A DNA stretch of 64,000 nt from assembly GCA_016342355.1 (NCBI GenBank), contig JAEINP010000002.1:124001-188000 (forward strand), written 5' to 3'. The notes under the pieces are model-generated. The model made no database searches. It worked only from the letters and a program-made list of their open reading frames with translations, and had not been told where the DNA came from. Of the stretch, positions 23,248 to 32,113 are shown one piece after another. The stretch comes from Desulfatibacillum sp. Lineage in GTDB: Bacteria > Desulfobacterota > Desulfobacteria > Desulfobacterales > Desulfatibacillaceae. The position numbers and the translations under genes were made by a program. Each line of letters begins with the position of its first letter. Within the stretch, counting starts at the first letter, position 1.

Positions 23248-24348
23248 ATGATCTGGTCGGTCCGGGCAATTACCATACCTATATTTTTCGCCAGCGGACT
23301 GGCCTTGCTCCTGGCATTGGAACAAGTCACCCGAAAAAAGCCCAATAAAGCCAACCTCTTGTTTTCGGGAATATTTCTTTGCTGCGCCGTTATTATATGG
23401 GGGGCTGGAGCCGTGGCCAACTGGCTGCCCCCAAAAACACCCTGGACTATATACCTGTTTTTTACGGCCATATGTGCGGTGGGGCCATTATACTATTTTT
23501 ATTTCACTATTTTGCTGCATCCCGAAAAAAAATTCGCCCGCCGATCCCTGATGCATTTTATCCCTGCCATGGGGGCTTTTTGCATCGAAACCGGGTTTCA
23601 GATGCTCCCCCTGAATTTCAAGTCACACTGGCTCAACGAGATGTTTTTGCAGCCGCCCAAACACGCCCTCATGATCCTTGTGGTGGTGGGGGCTGTCCAT
23701 GCCTTCGCCTATATCAGCCATCTGTTGAAAATGGACTTACGCCTGGTTTGGAATGTGAAGGAAGTCAAGATAGAACTCCGATCCCTCTTTGTCCTGGATA
23801 TCCTGGCAATCCTCTCCGTGGTCAGCCTTTACATGGGTTTTACCTTTAAAATTCCCTGGCTGTTCGACTACGGGGGCCTGTTGCTGGCTGTGCTGACGGT
23901 CAGCGTGTTCCTGGGATACAACCGTTTTCCGAATTTCTTACAGTTGCTTAAAGAGGAGTTCGGAAAAATGCGCTATGAAAAGTCCTCCCTCACCCATGTG
24001 GATACCTCGGCCATCAATGAGGGGTTGATCAGGCTCATCACGGAGGAAAAAATCTTCACAGATCCTGAACTGAACCTTAAAGGCCTTGCCGAAAGGCTTT
24101 CCCTTAGCCCCCACCAACTATCCGAATATCTTAACGAGCGGGTGCAAACCGATTTCCGGTCTTTCATCAACGTCTTCCGGGTCAGGGAGGCGAAAAGGGT
24201 CCTTGTGGAGGAACCGGATAAAAACATTCTGACCATTTGCTATGATGTGGGATTCGGGTCCAAATCCACCTTCAACACGGTTTTCAAAAAGGAAACCGGC
24301 CAGACTCCCAGCGAATACAGGGAAAGCGCCCTTTCCTCGTCATCCTGA
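23248..24348 (+). CDS. membrane-anchored AraC-family transcriptional regulator
   Basis: 366 residues. The N-terminal ~230 residues contain about seven hydrophobic helices (first at 7-24), a layout used by membrane-bound AraC sensors. The C-terminal ~110 residues are an AraC double helix-turn-helix: LNLKGLAERLSLSPHQLSEYLNE and then ILTICYDVGFGSKSTFNTVFKKETGQTPSEYR, with the usual second-helix consensus. GAGGTG precedes the ATG. The gene lies directly upstream of the radical SAM-hydrolase fusion on the same strand (313-base gap) and may control that cluster, presumably in response to a membrane or hydrophobic signal (inference). Confidence 0.9.
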   Translation: MIWSVRAITIPIFFASGLALLLALEQVTRKKPNKANLLFSGIFLCCAVIIWGAGAVANWLPPKTPWTIYLFFTAICAVGPLYYFYFTILLHPEKKFARRSLMHFIPAMGAFCIETGFQMLPLNFKSHWLNEMFLQPPKHALMILVVVGAVHAFAYISHLLKMDLRLVWNVKEVKIELRSLFVLDILAILSVVSLYMGFTFKIPWLFDYGGLLLAVLTVSVFLGYNRFPNFLQLLKEEFGKMRYEKSSLTHVDTSAINEGLIRLITEEKIFTDPELNLKGLAERLSLSPHQLSEYLNERVQTDFRSFINVFRVREAKRVLVEEPDKNILTICYDVGFGSKSTFNTVFKKETGQTPSEYRESALSSSS

Positions 24349-24491: not shown

Positions 24492-24565
24492 CATCACAGG
24501 GCGGCCTGCACTTCACAAAGAGCTTAGACCCCTCTGACAATAATTTGCAGGCCTGCCCTGTGATG
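24492..24565. repeat. long imperfect inverted repeat upstream of the radical SAM fusion gene
   Basis: The left arm 24492-24510 (CATCACAGGGCGGCCTGCA) matches the complement of the right arm 24546-24565 except for one extra base, leaving a 35-base loop. The pairing is 19 bp with a single bulge. No T-run follows. It lies 97 bases before the ATG at 24662, inside the 313-base gap after the AraC-type regulator. It may be a transcribed leader structure, an attenuator or a protein-binding site. The rest of the gap shows no gene. Confidence 0.75.
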
Positions 24566-24661
24566 GACTGGCCCCATGGGCGACAAGCCCCCCTTCCCCC
24601 GCGTATTTTTCAATCGGCCGCATATACCGTGGCCCCAGGCAGCATCACAGGAGGCTCCCGT

Positions 24662-27358
24662 ATGAAGAAAGTGCTATTGGCAAACTCCATTGGCCCCTAT
24701 GAAACCGGATGGGGGGAGGACGTAAACGACCTTTTTGCAGCGCGACTGACCAGGGGCCAGGGACCCTATACCGCAAAGAGCATTTTTCCCGCCTTCGCTC
24801 TCCACCTTTTGGCCGAAAACCTTAACGCCCACACCACAATCATGGAATGGCCCACAGAGGCTTTGTTCCGCAAGGAACTGGAAAAAGAGTACGACTACCT
24901 GGGCATCCAGGTAAAATCCATCCACATGAGCCAGATCGCCCGAATGGTGAAAATCGCCAGGGAGGTTTCCCCGCTTACGGAAATCGTCCTGGGCGGATAC
25001 GGCGTCATGCATATTTTCCAGCCCTACCCTAACGACCCTCTGGAGGACGCCAAATATCTCAGGGAAAATGCCGACCATTTTTGCTTTGAGGAAGGGGTGG
25101 GGTTTTTCCGGAAAATCATCGGCCAAAACCCCAAAGACAGAATCACCCAGGTAAAACAACCCATGTTTGAAGTGACAGTCCATGGGGCGGATTACCTGGC
25201 CCGATTTCCCCTGAGCTCCACCCTGGTCTCCCTGGGCTGCCCCAATGCCTGCGAATTCTGCAATACCTCCCACTTTTTCAAATTCAAAAAAATTACCATC
25301 TGCACCCCCGAAGAAACTTTCGCCTCCCTCAAGGCCGCCAATGACCGGATGGCCGGACTGCCCTCCCTGTTCAACATGATCTGGGACGAGGATTTTCTCA
25401 TAGACCGGGATTATGTAATGCGCCTGGGGGAACTCCTTCAAAAAGGCGGACTCATCGGCAAGGTGAACCTCTTTTGCTTCGCCAGCATACGCTCCATTTC
25501 CCAGTTCACGGTGGAGGAACTGGTCCGGTGCGGCATAGGCGCCCTATGGATTGGCGTGGAATCCAAATTCGAGGACGGCATTCTGTCGGAACACAATTTC
25601 CAAAAGAGGGTAGGCCGGAATGTGGTAGAGGTCTTCGAGGAACTGCACAACCATGGCATTCTGATCATCGGCTCCAATATTCTGGGTCTGGATTTTCATA
25701 ACCACCAGAACATCCTGGAGGACATCGACTATTTTGTGTCCCTCAAACCCGACCTGTACCAGGTTTCGCCGCTCAGGCCCTGCCCGGGAACCACGCTCTA
25801 TGACCGGCTGCTGGAGGACGGCAGGATCGAGGAGGAATTCCGCGCCCAGGACACCATGCTCTGGAGCGATATCGGCCTGAAGCACCCCAACTTCAAGCGA
25901 GGGGAAATCCAGAAATATTTCCATCTGGAGCATAAAAAGCTGCTGGAAACCAACGGCCCAACCGTCTTGAGCGTCATGGATGTCATGCTCAGGGGCTACC
26001 GAAACATGGTCCACTCCCCCGACCCCTTTCTCCAGGCCAAAGCGGACCGGTGCTACTTTTTCGCAAAAAAACTGGGGGCTGGTTTTCTGCCCAGTGTGCG
26101 GGAAATGATTCCCACTCCTGCCGTCCGCCAAAGGGTGGATGAAGTGGAGAAGCAATACCGACGCCATATTGGCGACTTTTCCGCCCGGGAAAAGATTGTC
26201 CAGCAGGCTATCCGCAAAATGATGAAAAAACAGGCTGCCAAAGAACCGCCGGAATCCTATACCCCGGATTATCTGATCACCCAAGTCAAAGGTCCGGGGG
26301 CTGGTCCCAAGGTGGTCAAACGCCAAAGGCCCCTCCGTCATCTTTTGAGCCAGGGTTCGTTAAAGGTTTTGCGCAAGGTGCTTGATCTTCAACATAAAAA
26401 CACTGTTCCCATCCGATTAAAGGATATTGACGATTTTCCCGTGGAATTCCAAACCATGGAAATCGAGGGCAACCGCATGAACTACGTGGACGAGGGCAAG
26501 GGCGAGGTGTTGCTCATGCTGCACGGCAACCCCGCTTGGTCCTATTTATACCGCCACTTCATCAAAGACCTGAAAAAGGATTATCGATGCATTGCATTGG
26601 ACCACCTGGGGTACGGCCTGTCGGACAAGCCCCATTTCGAAGACTATTCCATGGAGGCCCACATCCGCCGCCTGGGTGTTTTCATAGACAAAATGGGCCT
26701 GAAAAACATTACCCTCATCTGCCAGGACTGGGGCGGAATCATCGGCCTGTCCTATGCAGCCCGGAACAAGGAATTGTTTTCGCGCCTCATCCCCATGAAT
26801 ACCACGGGTTTCCTGCCCAAGAGCCCCGGGGAATTTGCCCGATGCATTGGAGCCTGGGCCTTTCCCTATTTATGGTCCTATAAAGTACCGGTCTTAGGCA
26901 AAAAAATGGCCATGGACTGGAATATTTTCCTCCGGGCAGGCATGCACCTGGGGATATACAATAGCAAACGGCAACTGCATCCCAAGGCCATAAACGGGTA
27001 TCTTTATCCTTTCCAAATGGTGCGGGACCGCACAGCCATCATGAAGTCGGTGCGCCAAGTGCCCATGGGGCCTCTGGACAAAACATGGTGGCTGCTGCGC
27101 GATACCGGCAAGGCCCTGGAAGGCTGGGACGTTCGCACCCAGGTGATCTGGGGTATGAAAGACCCGGTTTTCGTACCCTGGTTCATGGAAAAATTCGAGA
27201 CCCTGCTGCCCAACCACGCGCCTTCGATGAAAATCCCCACAGCCGGGCATTTCCTCCAGGACGACGAGCCGGAGATCATCATCAAGGCCATTCGGGGTTT
27301 TTTGAGCGAAAAACAACTGAAACGGAAAAAAAACCAAAGCAAACAACGCGCTGCCTGA
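24662..27358 (+). CDS. radical SAM enzyme fused to haloalkane dehalogenase/OleB-type alpha/beta-hydrolase
   Basis: 898 residues from the ATG at 24662, preceded by AGGAGG; open sequence upstream is ignored. Residues 1-170 look like a cobalamin-binding-type Rossmann domain (YDYLGIQVKSIHMSQ, EIVLGGYGV) but I see no DxHxxG cobalamin-ligand motif. The radical SAM core has its [4Fe-4S] cysteines at C193, C197 and C200 (GCPNACEFC). A helical region and linker run to about 595. The C-terminal hydrolase (599-880) has HGNPAWSY (oxyanion region, from H621), nucleophile Asp689 in CQDWGG, Asp834 in GMKDPVF and His863 in AGHFLQDDEP. Asp nucleophile and this pattern match haloalkane dehalogenases and OleB beta-lactone decarboxylase. 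Fusion of these two activities in one chain is unusual; the reaction is unknown. Confidence 0.9.
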   Translation: MKKVLLANSIGPYETGWGEDVNDLFAARLTRGQGPYTAKSIFPAFALHLLAENLNAHTTIMEWPTEALFRKELEKEYDYLGIQVKSIHMSQIARMVKIAREVSPLTEIVLGGYGVMHIFQPYPNDPLEDAKYLRENADHFCFEEGVGFFRKIIGQNPKDRITQVKQPMFEVTVHGADYLARFPLSSTLVSLGCPNACEFCNTSHFFKFKKITICTPEETFASLKAANDRMAGLPSLFNMIWDEDFLIDRDYVMRLGELLQKGGLIGKVNLFCFASIRSISQFTVEELVRCGIGALWIGVESKFEDGILSEHNFQKRVGRNVVEVFEELHNHGILIIGSNILGLDFHNHQNILEDIDYFVSLKPDLYQVSPLRPCPGTTLYDRLLEDGRIEEEFRAQDTMLWSDIGLKHPNFKRGEIQKYFHLEHKKLLETNGPTVLSVMDVMLRGYRNMVHSPDPFLQAKADRCYFFAKKLGAGFLPSVREMIPTPAVRQRVDEVEKQYRRHIGDFSAREKIVQQAIRKMMKKQAAKEPPESYTPDYLITQVKGPGAGPKVVKRQRPLRHLLSQGSLKVLRKVLDLQHKNTVPIRLKDIDDFPVEFQTMEIEGNRMNYVDEGKGEVLLMLHGNPAWSYLYRHFIKDLKKDYRCIALDHLGYGLSDKPHFEDYSMEAHIRRLGVFIDKMGLKNITLICQDWGGIIGLSYAARNKELFSRLIPMNTTGFLPKSPGEFARCIGAWAFPYLWSYKVPVLGKKMAMDWNIFLRAGMHLGIYNSKRQLHPKAINGYLYPFQMVRDRTAIMKSVRQVPMGPLDKTWWLLRDTGKALEGWDVRTQVIWGMKDPVFVPWFMEKFETLLPNHAPSMKIPTAGHFLQDDEPEIIIKAIRGFLSEKQLKRKKNQSKQRAA

Positions 27359-27399: not shown

Positions 27400-29415
27400 A
27401 TGAGCCAAACCTATCCGTTTTCCGCCTTTGTGGGCCAGGACCTCATGCGTATGGGACTCCTATTGAACGCCGTGAATCCCCGCATAGGCGGCATGCTCAT
27501 CCGGGGCGAAAAAGGCACCGGAAAAAGCACGGTGGTTCGCGCCCTTGCCACTATCCTGCCGGAGATTGATGTGGTGGAGGCTTGCCCCTTTGTGTGCGAT
27601 CCCCACGGGTTGGATCTCATGTGTCCCCGATGCCGAAAATCCGCGGAAAACGGTCCCCTGCCCGTCACCCGGCAACAGACACGGGTGCTGGAATTGCCCA
27701 TCAACGCCACCGAGGACAGGGTGGCCGGAACCATGGACCTGGAACACGCCCTCACCACCGGGGAAAAACGCTTTGAGCCCGGCATCCTGGCCAGCGCCAA
27801 CCGGGGCATTTTGTATGTGGACGAAGTTAACCTCCTGGACGACCATATTGTGGATATCCTGCTGGACAGTGCCGCCATGGGCGTCAACACGGTGGAGCGG
27901 GAAGGCGTGAGCTTCACCCATCCGGCCCGGTTCATCCTGGTAGGCACCATGAATCCAGAGGAAGGGGATTTGCGGCCCCAGTTGCTGGACAGGTTCGGCC
28001 TGAGCGTCCATGTGACCGGCATCCACGACCTGGATTCCAGGGACGAACTTTTAAGGCGTTGGGAGGAATTCGAAGCCAACCCCAGGGATTTCACCTCCAA
28101 ATGGGATAAGCAGGAAAACGCACTCAAAAAGCGCATCGTCAAAGCCAGGACGCTGCTTCCCAAGGTCAAGGCGGACGGGTCCATTATTCGCGCAATAACG
28201 GATATGGCCGTGCGCCTGGGCACGGACGGGCACCGGGCGGATCTGGTAATCCTGAAAACCGCCAAAACCCACGCCGCACTGGAAGGAAGAAAAGAGGTAT
28301 GCCTGGACGACGTGGCCATAGCTGCCAAACTGGCCGTAAGCCATCGCATGCGCCGACAGCCCTTTGACGAAATCCCCGACCACTCCCACGCGGTGGACAA
28401 GGTGTTGGAAAACGCCCGAAAGGCGGAACAGGATAAAAAAAAACTCTTGAGCCTGGAAGCTCCTTCCAATAATAAGGACGAAACGCCCCTGAAAAATGGA
28501 TGTCCCAAAGAAAAAAGCCTGCGCCCGCACCCGAAGGGCGCGGATGCCCCGGGGCAAGTGCACGATTTGGGGAAAACAGGCGCTTTGGCCGAGCAAAGCC
28601 ATAGAACAAGGCTTCCCCCAGCGCCCAGGCCGGAAAAAGGCCGTTTTCAAAAAGCGCGCTCCGTTGACAAAAGGGGCCGATACACCCGTGCATCCATTAT
28701 ATCAGAAGGCAACGACCTGGCCCTGGACGCCACCTTGCGGGCTGCGGCGCCCTTCGCCCGCACCCGCCCTGCCGGGCCATTGGCTATTCCCATACGCCCA
28801 TGGGACTGGAGGCGGAAAACACGCACCCACAAATCAGGAGCTTTGTTCGTCTTTGTGGTGGACGCCTCGGGGTCCATGGGCAATCACCTCATGACCCAGA
28901 CCAAGGCGGCCATCATGCACTTGCTGGCCCAGGCCTACAGGGAGCGCAGCGAAGCCGCCATGGTGGCCTTCAAGGGCCGGAGAGCCGAAATCCTGCTGCC
29001 TCCCACCAAAAGCATGAACCTGGCGGAAAAGATGCTAAGAACCCTGCCAACTGGCGGAACCACCCCCCTTTCCGCTGGAATGGCTTTGGGATTCCGCGTG
29101 GCCCAAAAAGCTCTGAACAGGGCCAGGGTTCCCTGGCCCCGCATAGTGCTTGTGACGGACGGCAGGGCCAACATTGGCATGCACAACCCAGGCAGATTGA
29201 GCGGAGCAACGCCCCTGCCCTTCCATGAGGAAGTTTTCGCAGTGGCCCGGAATATCCGAAAGGAAAAGCAAATCCGGTGTCTGGTCCTGGATACCGAGGA
29301 AAAACACCCCGGCGGCCTGGGCATGGCCCGGGAAATCGCCACGCACATGGGCGCACGGTATGTGCCCATGCATGGTTTGCAGCCGCACTCTATTTTAGAA
29401 GCTGTACTGGAATAG
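27400..29415 (+). CDS. fused magnesium-chelatase-like ATPase (ChlI-ChlD type) with VWA domain
   Basis: 671 residues. Residues 1-340 are a BchI/ChlI-type AAA+ module: Walker A GEKGTGKS (36-43), Walker B with Asp141-Glu142 in LYVDEVNLL, and GTMNPEEGDLRPQLLDRFGL. A four-Cys insertion (C62, C66, C75, C78) looks like a metal or Fe-S site. A basic, Pro-rich linker (about 350-440) leads to a C-terminal VWA domain with MIDAS motif DASGS from Asp488. ChlI plus ChlD drive metal insertion with a large H/CobN subunit, but none is encoded here. In non-photosynthetic bacteria such fusions may be general AAA+/VWA chaperone-like modules. It starts 41 bases after the radical SAM fusion and probably belongs to its operon. 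Confidence 0.88.
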   Translation: MSQTYPFSAFVGQDLMRMGLLLNAVNPRIGGMLIRGEKGTGKSTVVRALATILPEIDVVEACPFVCDPHGLDLMCPRCRKSAENGPLPVTRQQTRVLELPINATEDRVAGTMDLEHALTTGEKRFEPGILASANRGILYVDEVNLLDDHIVDILLDSAAMGVNTVEREGVSFTHPARFILVGTMNPEEGDLRPQLLDRFGLSVHVTGIHDLDSRDELLRRWEEFEANPRDFTSKWDKQENALKKRIVKARTLLPKVKADGSIIRAITDMAVRLGTDGHRADLVILKTAKTHAALEGRKEVCLDDVAIAAKLAVSHRMRRQPFDEIPDHSHAVDKVLENARKAEQDKKKLLSLEAPSNNKDETPLKNGCPKEKSLRPHPKGADAPGQVHDLGKTGALAEQSHRTRLPPAPRPEKGRFQKARSVDKRGRYTRASIISEGNDLALDATLRAAAPFARTRPAGPLAIPIRPWDWRRKTRTHKSGALFVFVVDASGSMGNHLMTQTKAAIMHLLAQAYRERSEAAMVAFKGRRAEILLPPTKSMNLAEKMLRTLPTGGTTPLSAGMALGFRVAQKALNRARVPWPRIVLVTDGRANIGMHNPGRLSGATPLPFHEEVFAVARNIRKEKQIRCLVLDTEEKHPGGLGMAREIATHMGARYVPMHGLQPHSILEAVLE

Positions 29416-29465: not shown

Positions 29466-30854
29466 TTGGGATATCTGGATCTGGACACAAAAATGAACAA
29501 GCGGCTCAAAGCCCTGCAACAAACCGCCAGGGAATTCGGCAGGGAGGTTGTGAGGCCGGCGGGCATCGCCCTGGACAAACTCACAGACCCGGCGGACGTC
29601 ATTGCCGATGATTCCGTGCTGTGGGACGTGTTTCAGGGGTTTCGGGAAAGAGGCCTCCATAAGGTCATGATACCCAAGGCCTTTGGGGGCGCCATGGGAG
29701 CCTTGCCGCCCCTGGCCCTGACCCTGGTGAACGAGCAGATGGGCTATGCAGACGGAGGTCTTGCCGTCAGCATGCTGGTTGCAGGCATGCCCTTTGTCTT
29801 CGCCATTATGTCCCCTCATAAGGAGGTCCGAAACTGGGCGCGGGATTTTGTAAATGACACCAAAGGAAACATGATCGGATGCTGGGCCATTACCGAGCCT
29901 GACCACGGAACCGACTGGGTGCTGGGGACCAGCAGGGCCGGTGGCGATCCCCGCCTTGCGCCCGGACTCACGGCTGTCAAAAAGGGGGATGAATACATCC
30001 TCCACGGATGGAAATCCGCCTGGGTCAGCAACGGAACTATCGCAACCCATGCAGTGCTCCATGTGGGGCTGGACCCGTCCAAGGGCATTCATGGCTCGGG
30101 CATCGCCCTGTGCCCCTTGGATCTGCCCGGGATCACCCGCAACGCCCCGTTGAACAAGGTGGGCCAACGCCCCCTGAACCAGGGAGAAATCATCTTCGAC
30201 GAAGTCAAATTGCCAAAAAAATACATGCTCCTTCCGGCCCCGGGTTTTTTTGGCGCAAACACCTTTGGGCACACCTTCCTGGGAGTTGCCAACAGCAGCA
30301 TGGGCGTCACCTTTGCCGGACAGGCCCAGGCCACCCTGGACGAAGCGCTCCGGTTCGCCTACGAAAACAAACGCAACGGCATCCTGCTTGCAGAACAGGA
30401 GGACGTTAAAATCAGGCTGTTCCGCATGTTCGCCAAGGTGGAGGCCGCCAGAAACCTGGCCCGAAAAACATCCCTTCATTTCATGTCCATGAGTTCCGGC
30501 AGGATTTCAAACTTCGCCACATCGCACCGCCTCACCTTTTGGGCCTTGGGCAATGCCTTGCACGCCTTTTTCCAGGCTTATGAAAAGTATGAATCCGTGC
30601 GCGATTGGGCCGAAGTCCTGACCCATCCCGTCCGGACTAACGAACTCATGGAATGGGGAAAATACGGGGTGGCCTCAAAAATCACCGCCACGGAAACCGC
30701 CTACGAAGTAGCCCAGGAAGCTCTCCAGATATTTGGGGTGGATGCCCTTTCTCCGGATTGCCCCATTGAAAAGATGCTCCGGGACGCACGGGCCTCCATG
30801 ATCGAGGACGGCGCCAACGACGCCCTGGCCATGGCCGCCTTTGAAGGGGTGTGA
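29466..30854 (+). CDS. acyl-CoA dehydrogenase-family flavoprotein (paralogue 1)
   Basis: 462 residues, starting at a TTG (29466) with GGAGGGA just upstream. FAD/substrate strand GCWAITEPDHGTDW is the family loop and WVSNGTIATH the following strand. C-terminal: VAQEALQIFGVDALSP, then IEKMLRDARASMIEDGAND. The usual YEGT catalytic-Glu motif is replaced by MIEDG, with Glu in the aligned position. It shares the segment RPAGIALDKL with the next gene and the two are clearly paralogous. The Rossmann-like mid-domain is longer than in short-chain enzymes. Substrate is unknown. It follows the chelatase-like gene by 50 bases. Confidence 0.87.
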   Translation: MGYLDLDTKMNKRLKALQQTAREFGREVVRPAGIALDKLTDPADVIADDSVLWDVFQGFRERGLHKVMIPKAFGGAMGALPPLALTLVNEQMGYADGGLAVSMLVAGMPFVFAIMSPHKEVRNWARDFVNDTKGNMIGCWAITEPDHGTDWVLGTSRAGGDPRLAPGLTAVKKGDEYILHGWKSAWVSNGTIATHAVLHVGLDPSKGIHGSGIALCPLDLPGITRNAPLNKVGQRPLNQGEIIFDEVKLPKKYMLLPAPGFFGANTFGHTFLGVANSSMGVTFAGQAQATLDEALRFAYENKRNGILLAEQEDVKIRLFRMFAKVEAARNLARKTSLHFMSMSSGRISNFATSHRLTFWALGNALHAFFQAYEKYESVRDWAEVLTHPVRTNELMEWGKYGVASKITATETAYEVAQEALQIFGVDALSPDCPIEKMLRDARASMIEDGANDALAMAAFEGV

Positions 30855-30901
30855 TTGTTCCACGATGCGTTTTGACCATACAAAAAAAGGGAGGCCTTTT
30901 C

Positions 30902-32113
30902 ATGGCTTATCGAGATATTGACGTCTGCCCCAACAAGGAAACCAGCGCGGTTCTTAAGGAAGTAAAAAAATTCGCCGTCGAATTCATGCGGCCTGCGGGC
31001 ATCGCCCTGGATCAACTGGCTTCCCCGGCCCAGGCCCTCCAGGATGATTCGCCGTTGTGGGAAATGTTTTCCCGTTACAGAAAGCTGGACCTCCACGCCC
31101 TGGATATCCCGGAGGAACAGGGCGGCCTGGGCAAGGCGGACTGGATGACCTCCACCCTCATCGCCGAAACCCTGGGTTATGGAGACGCCGGACTGGCGGT
31201 TTCCCTGGTTTCCGCAGGCCTGCCCTTTCAATGCGCAGCCCGGCTGGACGTCAAAAAGGTCAAAGAAATCCTCACCAGCTATTGCGAATCCGGGGATTGC
31301 CCCACCATTGCCTGTACGTATTTGTCCTGCCTCAATTTCATGCAGGACCATTCCTCCCGGAACGGAAGCGACAAACTCCCCGTGACAGCAACCCCGGACA
31401 AGGGCAAGTATGTGTTGAACGGGACCACCCCTCCCCTGCCCAACGCGCCATTCGCCACCCACGTTTTCCTGGAATTCACAATCAACCTGAAAAACTCCCC
31501 CCCACGCACGGCCCTGGCGGTCATCCCCCTGGACTCACCGGGGGTTTCCCGCAAAGCGCCCCTGGACGTGAGCGGGCAGCGTTCCCTGCTGCGTGCCGCC
31601 CTGGAATTTAAGGATTTGAAAATCACAAAGGGAAATATCCTTACCGATGAAGATGCAGTCTTAAAAGGCCTCCATAAGGATTATGTGGTGCGGCTGAACC
31701 AGTGCCTGGGGCTGGTTTTCTGCGGCCTGGCCATGTCGGCCTTTGACCAGACCCTGGAGTACTCCCGGGGACGCATCCAGGGCGGAGTTCCCATATTTTC
31801 CCACAAGAATATCAAGCTGCAATTTTTCAAGATGTTCAAAATGATAGAGGCGGCCCGGGCCAATGCAAGGCGGCTGGCCTGCCACTATCACGATTGCTCC
31901 GTGGAATGCTCCCTGGCCCATGCCCTGGCCGCCAAATGCCTGTCCACGGAGACCGCCGTCATGGCCGCCAGCGAAGCCATCCAGATCCTGGGCGGCTATG
32001 GCCTGACCAGGGAGTTTCCCATGGAAAAGCTGTTCCGGGACGCCCACGCGGCCATGATCGAGCACGGCGTCAACCAGGACCTGGCCCTGGAAGCGATGGA
32101 GTGCTTCAAATAG
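30902..32113 (+). CDS. acyl-CoA dehydrogenase-family flavoprotein (paralogue 2)
   Basis: 403 residues from the ATG at 30902 (MAYRDIDVCPNK), which has GGGAGG nine bases before it; an in-frame ATG at 30851 overlaps the previous gene and is less likely. It shares RPAGIALDQLASPAQAL-type N-terminus, SLVSAGLPFQCAARLD region and the C-terminal AIQILGGYGLTREFPMEKLFRD helix with the preceding paralogue. Its catalytic region reads MIEHGVNQD, with Glu in the expected place instead of YEGT. The FAD loop (ACTYLSCLNFMQDH) departs from the usual TEPxxGSD, so substrate or cofactor handling may differ. Two paralogues side by side suggest a heteromeric enzyme, or two successive oxidations. Confidence 0.87.
   Translation: MAYRDIDVCPNKETSAVLKEVKKFAVEFMRPAGIALDQLASPAQALQDDSPLWEMFSRYRKLDLHALDIPEEQGGLGKADWMTSTLIAETLGYGDAGLAVSLVSAGLPFQCAARLDVKKVKEILTSYCESGDCPTIACTYLSCLNFMQDHSSRNGSDKLPVTATPDKGKYVLNGTTPPLPNAPFATHVFLEFTINLKNSPPRTALAVIPLDSPGVSRKAPLDVSGQRSLLRAALEFKDLKITKGNILTDEDAVLKGLHKDYVVRLNQCLGLVFCGLAMSAFDQTLEYSRGRIQGGVPIFSHKNIKLQFFKMFKMIEAARANARRLACHYHDCSVECSLAHALAAKCLSTETAVMAASEAIQILGGYGLTREFPMEKLFRDAHAAMIEHGVNQDLALEAMECFK

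Follow-up and report, generated by a model that had tools for sequence, protein, structure and literature searches.

The gene described here, from a sulfate-reducing bacterium, encodes, in a single chain of 898 residues, a radical S-adenosylmethionine (SAM) enzyme joined to a haloalkane-dehalogenase-like hydrolase, and it is followed by a gene for a ChlI-ChlD motor of the kind found in metal chelatases. Both lie in a 64,000-nucleotide stretch of a Desulfatibacillum sp. genome of 5.26 Mb (G000; assembly GCA_016342355.1, contig JAEINP010000002.1, positions 124,001 to 188,000 of the forward strand); this whole stretch is called the window, and coordinates are given within it. The fusion gene, its parts and the motor gene are laid out as follows.

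24662 to 27358, + strand: radical SAM / haloalkane-dehalogenase-like hydrolase fusion, 898 amino acids (translation, Pfam, NCBIfam, structure model)
24646 to 24661, + strand: ribosome-binding site region, CACAGGAGGCTCCCGT ahead of the ATG
24662 to 25186, + strand: N-terminal Rossmann (B12-binding-like) domain, about residues 1-175, DxHxxG absent (model of residues 1-590 against AprD4; motif scan)
25187 to 25891, + strand: radical SAM core, about residues 176-410, with CX3CX2C at C193/C197/C200 (translation, Pfam, motif scan)
25892 to 26446, + strand: helical region (about residues 411-525) and linker (526-595) (secondary structure of the model; conservation)
26447 to 27316, + strand: hydrolase domain, about residues 596-885, with N623, D689 (nucleophile), W690, D834 and H863 (Pfam, sequence match, tree alignment, fold search)
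27400 to 29415, + strand: ChlI-ChlD fused AAA+/VWA motor, annotated as putative cobaltochelatase, 671 amino acids (TIGR02442)

The frame from 24662 to 27358 is open and translates into 898 residues with a single terminal stop. Its start codon, in ATGAAG at 24662, lies directly behind CACAGGAGGCTCCCGT, a strong ribosome-binding site; the mechanically called open reading frame is longer, from a TTG at 24545, and fused homologues match from the first methionine (Met1) of the shorter one. The original prediction, made from the letters alone, took the gene for a genuine single-chain fusion that a frame error would undo, and the search for the same architecture, which was confined to the phylum (plus control genomes), bears the fusion out. 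The two halves run unbroken in homologues of 58-84% identity at seven other places (G001, which is of the same genus as the window genome, G138 twice, G022, G191, G010 and G050), the closest named relative being Desulfatibacillum alkenivorans DSM 16219 at 84%. Within the Desulfatibacillaceae seven of the nine genomes searched carry the fusion, six of them unbroken (with two copies in G138), while in G235 it is divided by contig ends only, into two pieces that overlap by 45 residues. G050, from another family, also carries it (58% identity), and it was not found at E 1e-100 in two other genomes of that family. A frame error or assembly artefact is rejected, given an open frame and a fusion that recurs in other genomes. 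A further scan of contigs used exact peptide patterns, which detect close relatives only and say nothing on absence in other phyla. In the tree all eight fused hydrolase domains group as a single clade (support 100/100), which fits an origin of the fusion in a single event.

A structure model of the full-length protein, built from an alignment 49 rows deep, has a predicted local distance difference test (pLDDT) score of 89.7 and a predicted template modeling score (pTM) of 0.89, values such as a fixed arrangement of the two halves would be expected to give. Compared with the G001 copy, the ratio of nonsynonymous to synonymous substitution rates (dN/dS) is 0.04 for the radical SAM core and 0.10 for the hydrolase; these figures are rough, with dS at 0.9-1.6, and suggest that purifying selection acts on both halves. 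The helical region and linker between them are the least conserved stretch of the protein.

The three cysteines assigned to the radical SAM cluster in the original prediction stand in the motif CPNACEFC (residues 193-200), and CX3CX2C is present in 37 of 37 aligned family members; this motif, a Pfam match to Radical_SAM at residues 189-357 (30.5 bits, cut-off 29.5) and the fold match of the model place the protein in the radical SAM superfamily. The best fold match of the model of residues 1-590 (pLDDT 88.7, pTM 0.89) is AprD4 (PDB 6fd2; Z 22.4, 390 residues aligned, root-mean-square deviation 4.0, 17% identity), followed by TsrM (Z 17.9) and OxsB (Z 17.5). AprD4 shares with the fusion an N-terminal Rossmann domain and a radical SAM barrel, matched over fusion residues 1-494, but is a single 454-residue enzyme without a hydrolase; it is described as a radical SAM dehydratase of a 1,2-diol, with the aminoglycoside paromamine as substrate and AprD3 as partner reductase (PMC5461906). 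The score of the fusion against the AprD4 family NF033070 is 30.2 bits, far below the cut-off of 500, the best NCBIfam name for this half is HpnJ at 62.9 bits (cut-off 577.6), and among the matches listed neither half of the fusion reaches the cut-off of any NCBIfam model. We take the modeled resemblance to AprD4 as a likeness of fold, with no function shown by it.

It had also been noted that the cobalamin-like N-terminal domain lacks a visible DxHxxG motif, and this holds across the family: the domain appears to be of the B12-binding type, and none of the 37 aligned members has the motif within the first 230 residues scanned. In Pfam the fusion has no match to PF02310 at E 0.001, and the relatives in L052 and L054 stay below the cut-off (27.7 and 29.7 against 32.1 bits); a STAS-like tail suspected by eye in these two relatives was not found by Pfam. 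Cobalamin-dependent radical SAM enzymes often bind cobalamin without DxHxxG, so that absence of the motif alone does not exclude the cofactor; AprD4, for its part, is not known to need cobalamin.

In the C-terminal third, the proposed Asp-nucleophile triad (D689, D834 and H863) stands, and N623 and W690 complete with it the catalytic pentad of the haloalkane dehalogenases, which is intact in all eight aligned fused domains. Pfam places Abhydrolase_1 at residues 616-870 (103 bits), and the best NCBIfam name is the haloalkane dehalogenase PRK03592 at residues 592-887, with 165.8 bits (cut-off 241); in all, the domain matches three haloalkane dehalogenase models, each time under the cut-off. DhmeA is its best sequence match (141 bits) and, by E-value, its top fold match (3e-18, TMt 0.84), some HaloTag chains reaching a TMt of 0.88. 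The pentad of the fusion maps residue for residue onto that of DhmeA, which comprises N63, D129, W130, D258 and H286 (PMC10503415), with a spacing of 66 residues between Asn and nucleophile in both proteins; DhmeA differs in being unfused, in an identity of about 30%, and in reading HDWGG where the fusion, like all eight fused domains, reads QDWGG. An Asp-His-Asp triad with Asn and Trp defines subfamily III of the haloalkane dehalogenase-like proteins (PMC10503415), and the pentad of the fusion agrees with this definition, the tree having been built without reference proteins of subfamilies I and II.

The motor gene, which is absent from the original prediction, starts 41 base pairs after the stop of the fusion. 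Its product shares AAA+ and VWA domains (Pfam) and Walker and MIDAS-type motifs with the ChlI-ChlD motor of cobalt and magnesium chelatases (TIGR02442), these motifs and an arginine finger being recognized by eye in the translation, and its score of 718.6 bits does not reach the family cut-off of 779.45. It differs from those motors in being tied to a radical SAM-hydrolase gene, often with no CobN/BchH found, and in belonging to a separate clade. Genome context, proposed earlier as a check on the fusion, shows such a motor as the following gene in the same orientation, no more than about 1.1 kb away, for eight of the nine fusions (the window, G001, G010, G022, the first copy of G138, G191, G235, and G050, where it is two genes). 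A version of the system in separate genes occurs in G013 (L051), in the order radical SAM, ChlI, ChlD, hydrolase; G149 (L105) has hydrolase, ChlI and the start of ChlD at a contig end, read against the strand of transcription. The G149 hydrolase (L105:1525-2430, G149:C204) is itself a PRK00870 haloalkane dehalogenase, at 475.5 bits against a cut-off of 265.

Another 20 ChlI/ChlD loci from the class, selected from the 44 genomes that match at E 1e-100, served for comparison. ChlI/ChlD was recovered in 18 of these, and CobN lies in the stretch in 12 (L137-L139, L141-L148 and L153; the ChlI/D gene of L146 was not recovered). In the ChlI tree nine of the ten sequences from a radical SAM/hydrolase context form one clade (95/97), the tenth, from G149 (L105), being unplaced; this clade stands apart from 13 rows labelled CobN-linked, a label that is partly assumed, with CobN in the stretch for ten of them and not for L136, L140 and L121. 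A search for CobN/BchH (PF02514) gave no match in G010, G022, G138, G191, G235, G050, G013 or G149, and on this ground the motor appears to be without a known large subunit in six of the eight fusion genomes, as far as the draft assemblies allow.

Some other arrangements were seen around these genes. The second G138 fusion (L049:3560-12594, G138:C4) lies downstream of a B12-type radical SAM gene and of ferredoxin-domain genes, one of which also encodes DUF362. G235 and G138 share, on the opposite strand between fusion and motor, a frame of about 325 residues (L044:1407-2384, - strand, and the matching stretch of L050) that is 56% identical in the two and for which Pfam gives no match. Lone ChlI-ChlD proteins with no CobN in the stretch read make up a second clade (L149:4733-6763, L150:7983-10187 and L154:8624-10687); L149 and L150 each carry a B12-binding radical SAM gene only a few genes away.

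The radical SAM half also has stand-alone relatives in the same phylum, among them proteins of 42-45% identity in G330, G365 (two), G357, G291 and G321. We read 42 stand-alone loci (L047, L048, L051-L056, L076, L087-L103, L159 and L163-L177), some of them on short contigs, and counted hydrolases with one tblastn at E 1e-10, for which the queries were hydrolases of the fused, separate and OleB types. Four loci (L047, L048, L051 and L089) have a hydrolase gene in the same orientation as the radical SAM gene and at most 3.6 kb from it, with an overlap of 4 bases between the two in L089; L159 has an OleB gene 6.1 kb away, and the other 37 stretches gave no such hydrolase in this search. The Trp after the nucleophile is replaced in two of the separate hydrolases, by Gln in L048 and by Val in L089. 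We read the separate loci as probable cases of repeated pairing with different hydrolases of one fold. Penicillin amidase genes beside the stand-alone radical SAM genes of L087 and L090 were not taken as part of the system.

Three further genes flank the fusion and its motor.

29466 to 30854, + strand: acyl-coenzyme A (CoA) dehydrogenase 1, 462 amino acids (Pfam)
30851 to 32113, + strand: acyl-CoA dehydrogenase 2, 420 amino acids, its start overlapping acyl-CoA dehydrogenase 1 by 4 base pairs (Pfam)
23248 to 24348, + strand: AraC-family regulator, upstream of the fusion (Pfam)

Acyl-CoA dehydrogenase 1, which was counted in fusion genomes only, occurs with the fusion in seven of eight genomes; linkage between them is seen in four, a number that rises to five if the contigs of G138 are neighbors. 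It follows the motor also in L040, L043 and L044 (71-73%), and orthologues of 67-74% lie on other contigs of G022, G050 and G138 (at a contig end in G138). Relatives of acyl-CoA dehydrogenase 2 (41% and 35%) were found in L040 and L043 only; more distant acyl-CoA dehydrogenases (22-26%) lie nearby in L045 and L049, and the stand-alone radical SAM gene of L088 has a 39% relative of acyl-CoA dehydrogenase 1 two genes away. The neighboring dehydrogenases suggest acyl-CoA chemistry. The AraC-family regulator was considered as a conserved partner and set aside: of the fusion loci read, the window and L057 (= L038), a locus from the same genus, are the only ones to have it next to the fusion. Between the regulator and the fusion, at 24492-24562, lies a hairpin of about 70 bases that is much more stable than shuffled versions of itself (z -6.2; -5.0 in G001) and has one compensated pair change, G-C to A-U, between two species; it occurs once in each of two Desulfatibacillum genomes, has no match in eight other genomes searched, and reaches the cut-off of no Rfam family.

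The observed architecture, intact catalytic residues, selection and gene linkage suggest a model in which the fusion serves as catalytic protein in an anaerobic pathway not described before, a reading to which, with the mechanism and the role for the motor set out here, we give a probability of roughly 0.36. At the radical SAM site a 5'-deoxyadenosyl radical would abstract a hydrogen atom from a substrate linked to CoA or derived from lipid, and the product would have a reactive carbon centre, in the form of a strained cyclic ester or ether or of a carbon bearing a leaving group. Attack by Asp689 on this carbon would give a covalent ester; water would then free the product with the help of His863 and Asp834, and the leaving group would be held by N623 and W690. 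Another radical SAM enzyme, Elp3, is described as having two active sites that are distant but linked (PMC13315578). The ChlI-ChlD motor would no longer serve tetrapyrrole metal insertion and would instead remodel or activate the fusion enzyme; we propose this step because the motors of chelatases share the MoxR-vWA clade of AAA+ ATPases with chaperone pairs, and members of this clade with VWA partners act on and restructure other proteins (PMC7159879). The MoxR-vWA conflict systems covered by the same source differ in having other third components, not a radical SAM-hydrolase. The acyl-CoA dehydrogenases may prepare or finish the acyl chain. We hold as rather doubtful a more specific version of this model, in which a motor taken over from tetrapyrrole metal insertion would drive a two-site enzyme, the fusion would replace CobN/BchH, and a strained or activated intermediate would pass directly between the sites in one chain, making a three-part, ATP-driven anaerobic system of an undescribed kind. 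Each of the domains is already known; our searches of the open-access literature turned up neither the fusion nor a ChlI-ChlD motor associated with it.

The link to the motor draws support from its place after eight of nine fusions and its presence in the separate-gene version in L051. The proposal of the original prediction, that the radical enzyme makes an activated intermediate which the hydrolase resolves, is a reasonable inference and is helped by the separate nearby genes of L047, L048, L051 and L089, but it fares less well across the stand-alone loci at large, 38 of 42 of which have no hydrolase nearby (the OleB gene of L159 being counted as too far). This and several other findings weigh against our model. 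The hydrolases of the four paired loci form one clade neither with each other nor with the fused domain, and 41 of the 42 stand-alone loci have no ChlI/ChlD in the stretch. The second fusion of G138 has no adjoining motor, and in the first copy of G138 and in G235 about 1 kb with an opposite-strand frame separates fusion and motor. Acyl-CoA dehydrogenases are not a constant part of the cluster: G001 has no relative beside the motor and none above 39% elsewhere, and in G022 and G050 the orthologue of acyl-CoA dehydrogenase 1 is unlinked to the fusion. Several of the genomes are draft assemblies, so absences from them are not final. G001 has two full copies of CobN and G000 a CobN piece of 159 profile positions, so the motor could still serve a chelatase within the genus.

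A working chelatase is the core of one alternative, tetrapyrrole or corrinoid tailoring, in which a BchE-like radical SAM enzyme would act with a true ChlI-ChlD chelatase and the hydrolase would be BchO-like. The annotation of the next gene as putative cobaltochelatase, even if below the cut-off, fits this alternative, as do CobN in G001 and weak matches of the radical SAM half to BchE (24 bits) and of the hydrolase to BchO (33.9 bits). It is nonetheless quite unlikely, given the failure to match CobN/BchH in six of the eight fusion genomes and in G013 and G149, and the position of the ChlI clade apart from the rows labelled CobN-linked; in G001, moreover, a second ChlI/ChlD pair shares a contig with one of the CobN genes, and, the motor aside, no tetrapyrrole gene was recognized among the 20 window proteins scanned. 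A further alternative would be two independent enzymes joined only for assembly or co-regulation, with no common substrate. The scarcity of hydrolases near stand-alone radical SAM genes (four of 42 loci) speaks for such a joining, whereas the high pTM of the joint model, the retention of the fusion in seven of nine Desulfatibacillaceae genomes, and the separate appearance of the same combination as nearby genes with hydrolases from different branches make it unlikely.

The remaining alternatives concern the chemistry of the hydrolase. The original prediction drew a link to OleB, by which the hydrolase would decarboxylate a beta-lactone to an olefin while the radical SAM half modifies the same lipid. 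The four stand-alone hydrolase relatives whose context was read (L159-L162) are indeed OleB genes beside OleC, in ole clusters, and the proteins of L160-L162 (33-36% identity) are among the nearest stand-alone relatives of the fused hydrolase; its pentad also fits subfamily III, to which OleB is assigned (PMC10503415). G050 also has a real oleABCD cluster (L159:7426-18624, G050:C14; OleC 745.7 bits) with a third relative of the radical SAM half on the same strand, about 5 kb away; the genes that separate the two include one for a B12-binding radical SAM protein and one for a TPR protein. The OleC of G050 is, however, on a different contig from its fusion, and in the seven Desulfatibacillaceae with the fusion (G000, G001, G010, G022, G138, G191 and G235) the best OleC score is 182.7 bits against a cut-off of 478, the ole pathway having been probed through the OleC family NF006754 alone, with OleA and OleD not searched. 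In the tree the fused clade (100/100) stands apart from nine OleB-type rows, a group with support of 87/87, below the starred level, and with ole context seen for four rows; these rows read HDWGG, against QDWGG in the fused domains. (Row L160b, first labelled as part of the OleB group, proved to be another hydrolase and is placed elsewhere.) OleBC, a fusion in Micrococcales and Granulosicoccus (PMC7064751), offers a precedent for a fused member of the same hydrolase family, but its partner is OleC, not a radical SAM enzyme, and the fused domain described here appears to lie on a different branch of the tree. The link to olefins is accordingly weak, and OleB-type olefin synthesis is disfavoured, being quite improbable for these proteins; a beta-lactone supplied by some other enzyme is still conceivable.

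Real dehalogenation, in which the hydrolase would take halide off an organohalogen after the radical SAM half has prepared this substrate, or before it uses the product, is compatible with the complete pentad and with the above-threshold PRK00870 enzyme beside ChlI-ChlD in G149. We consider it decidedly improbable, since the fused domain scores under the cut-off of all three haloalkane dehalogenase models matched, subfamily III enzymes are described as having low dehalogenase activity (PMC10503415), and no other organohalogen gene was recognized among the 20 window proteins scanned.

Desulfatibacillum alkenivorans, the closest named carrier of the fusion, is an anaerobic degrader of alkenes and alkanes. 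Fusions show which reactions may succeed each other, and this one links a radical enzyme with the type of hydrolase that opens reactive carbon centres. If the motor serves the fusion, the machine known to insert metal into chlorophyll and B12 would have a second, unrecognised use, and the name 'cobaltochelatase' would be mistaken for one definable clade of the family.

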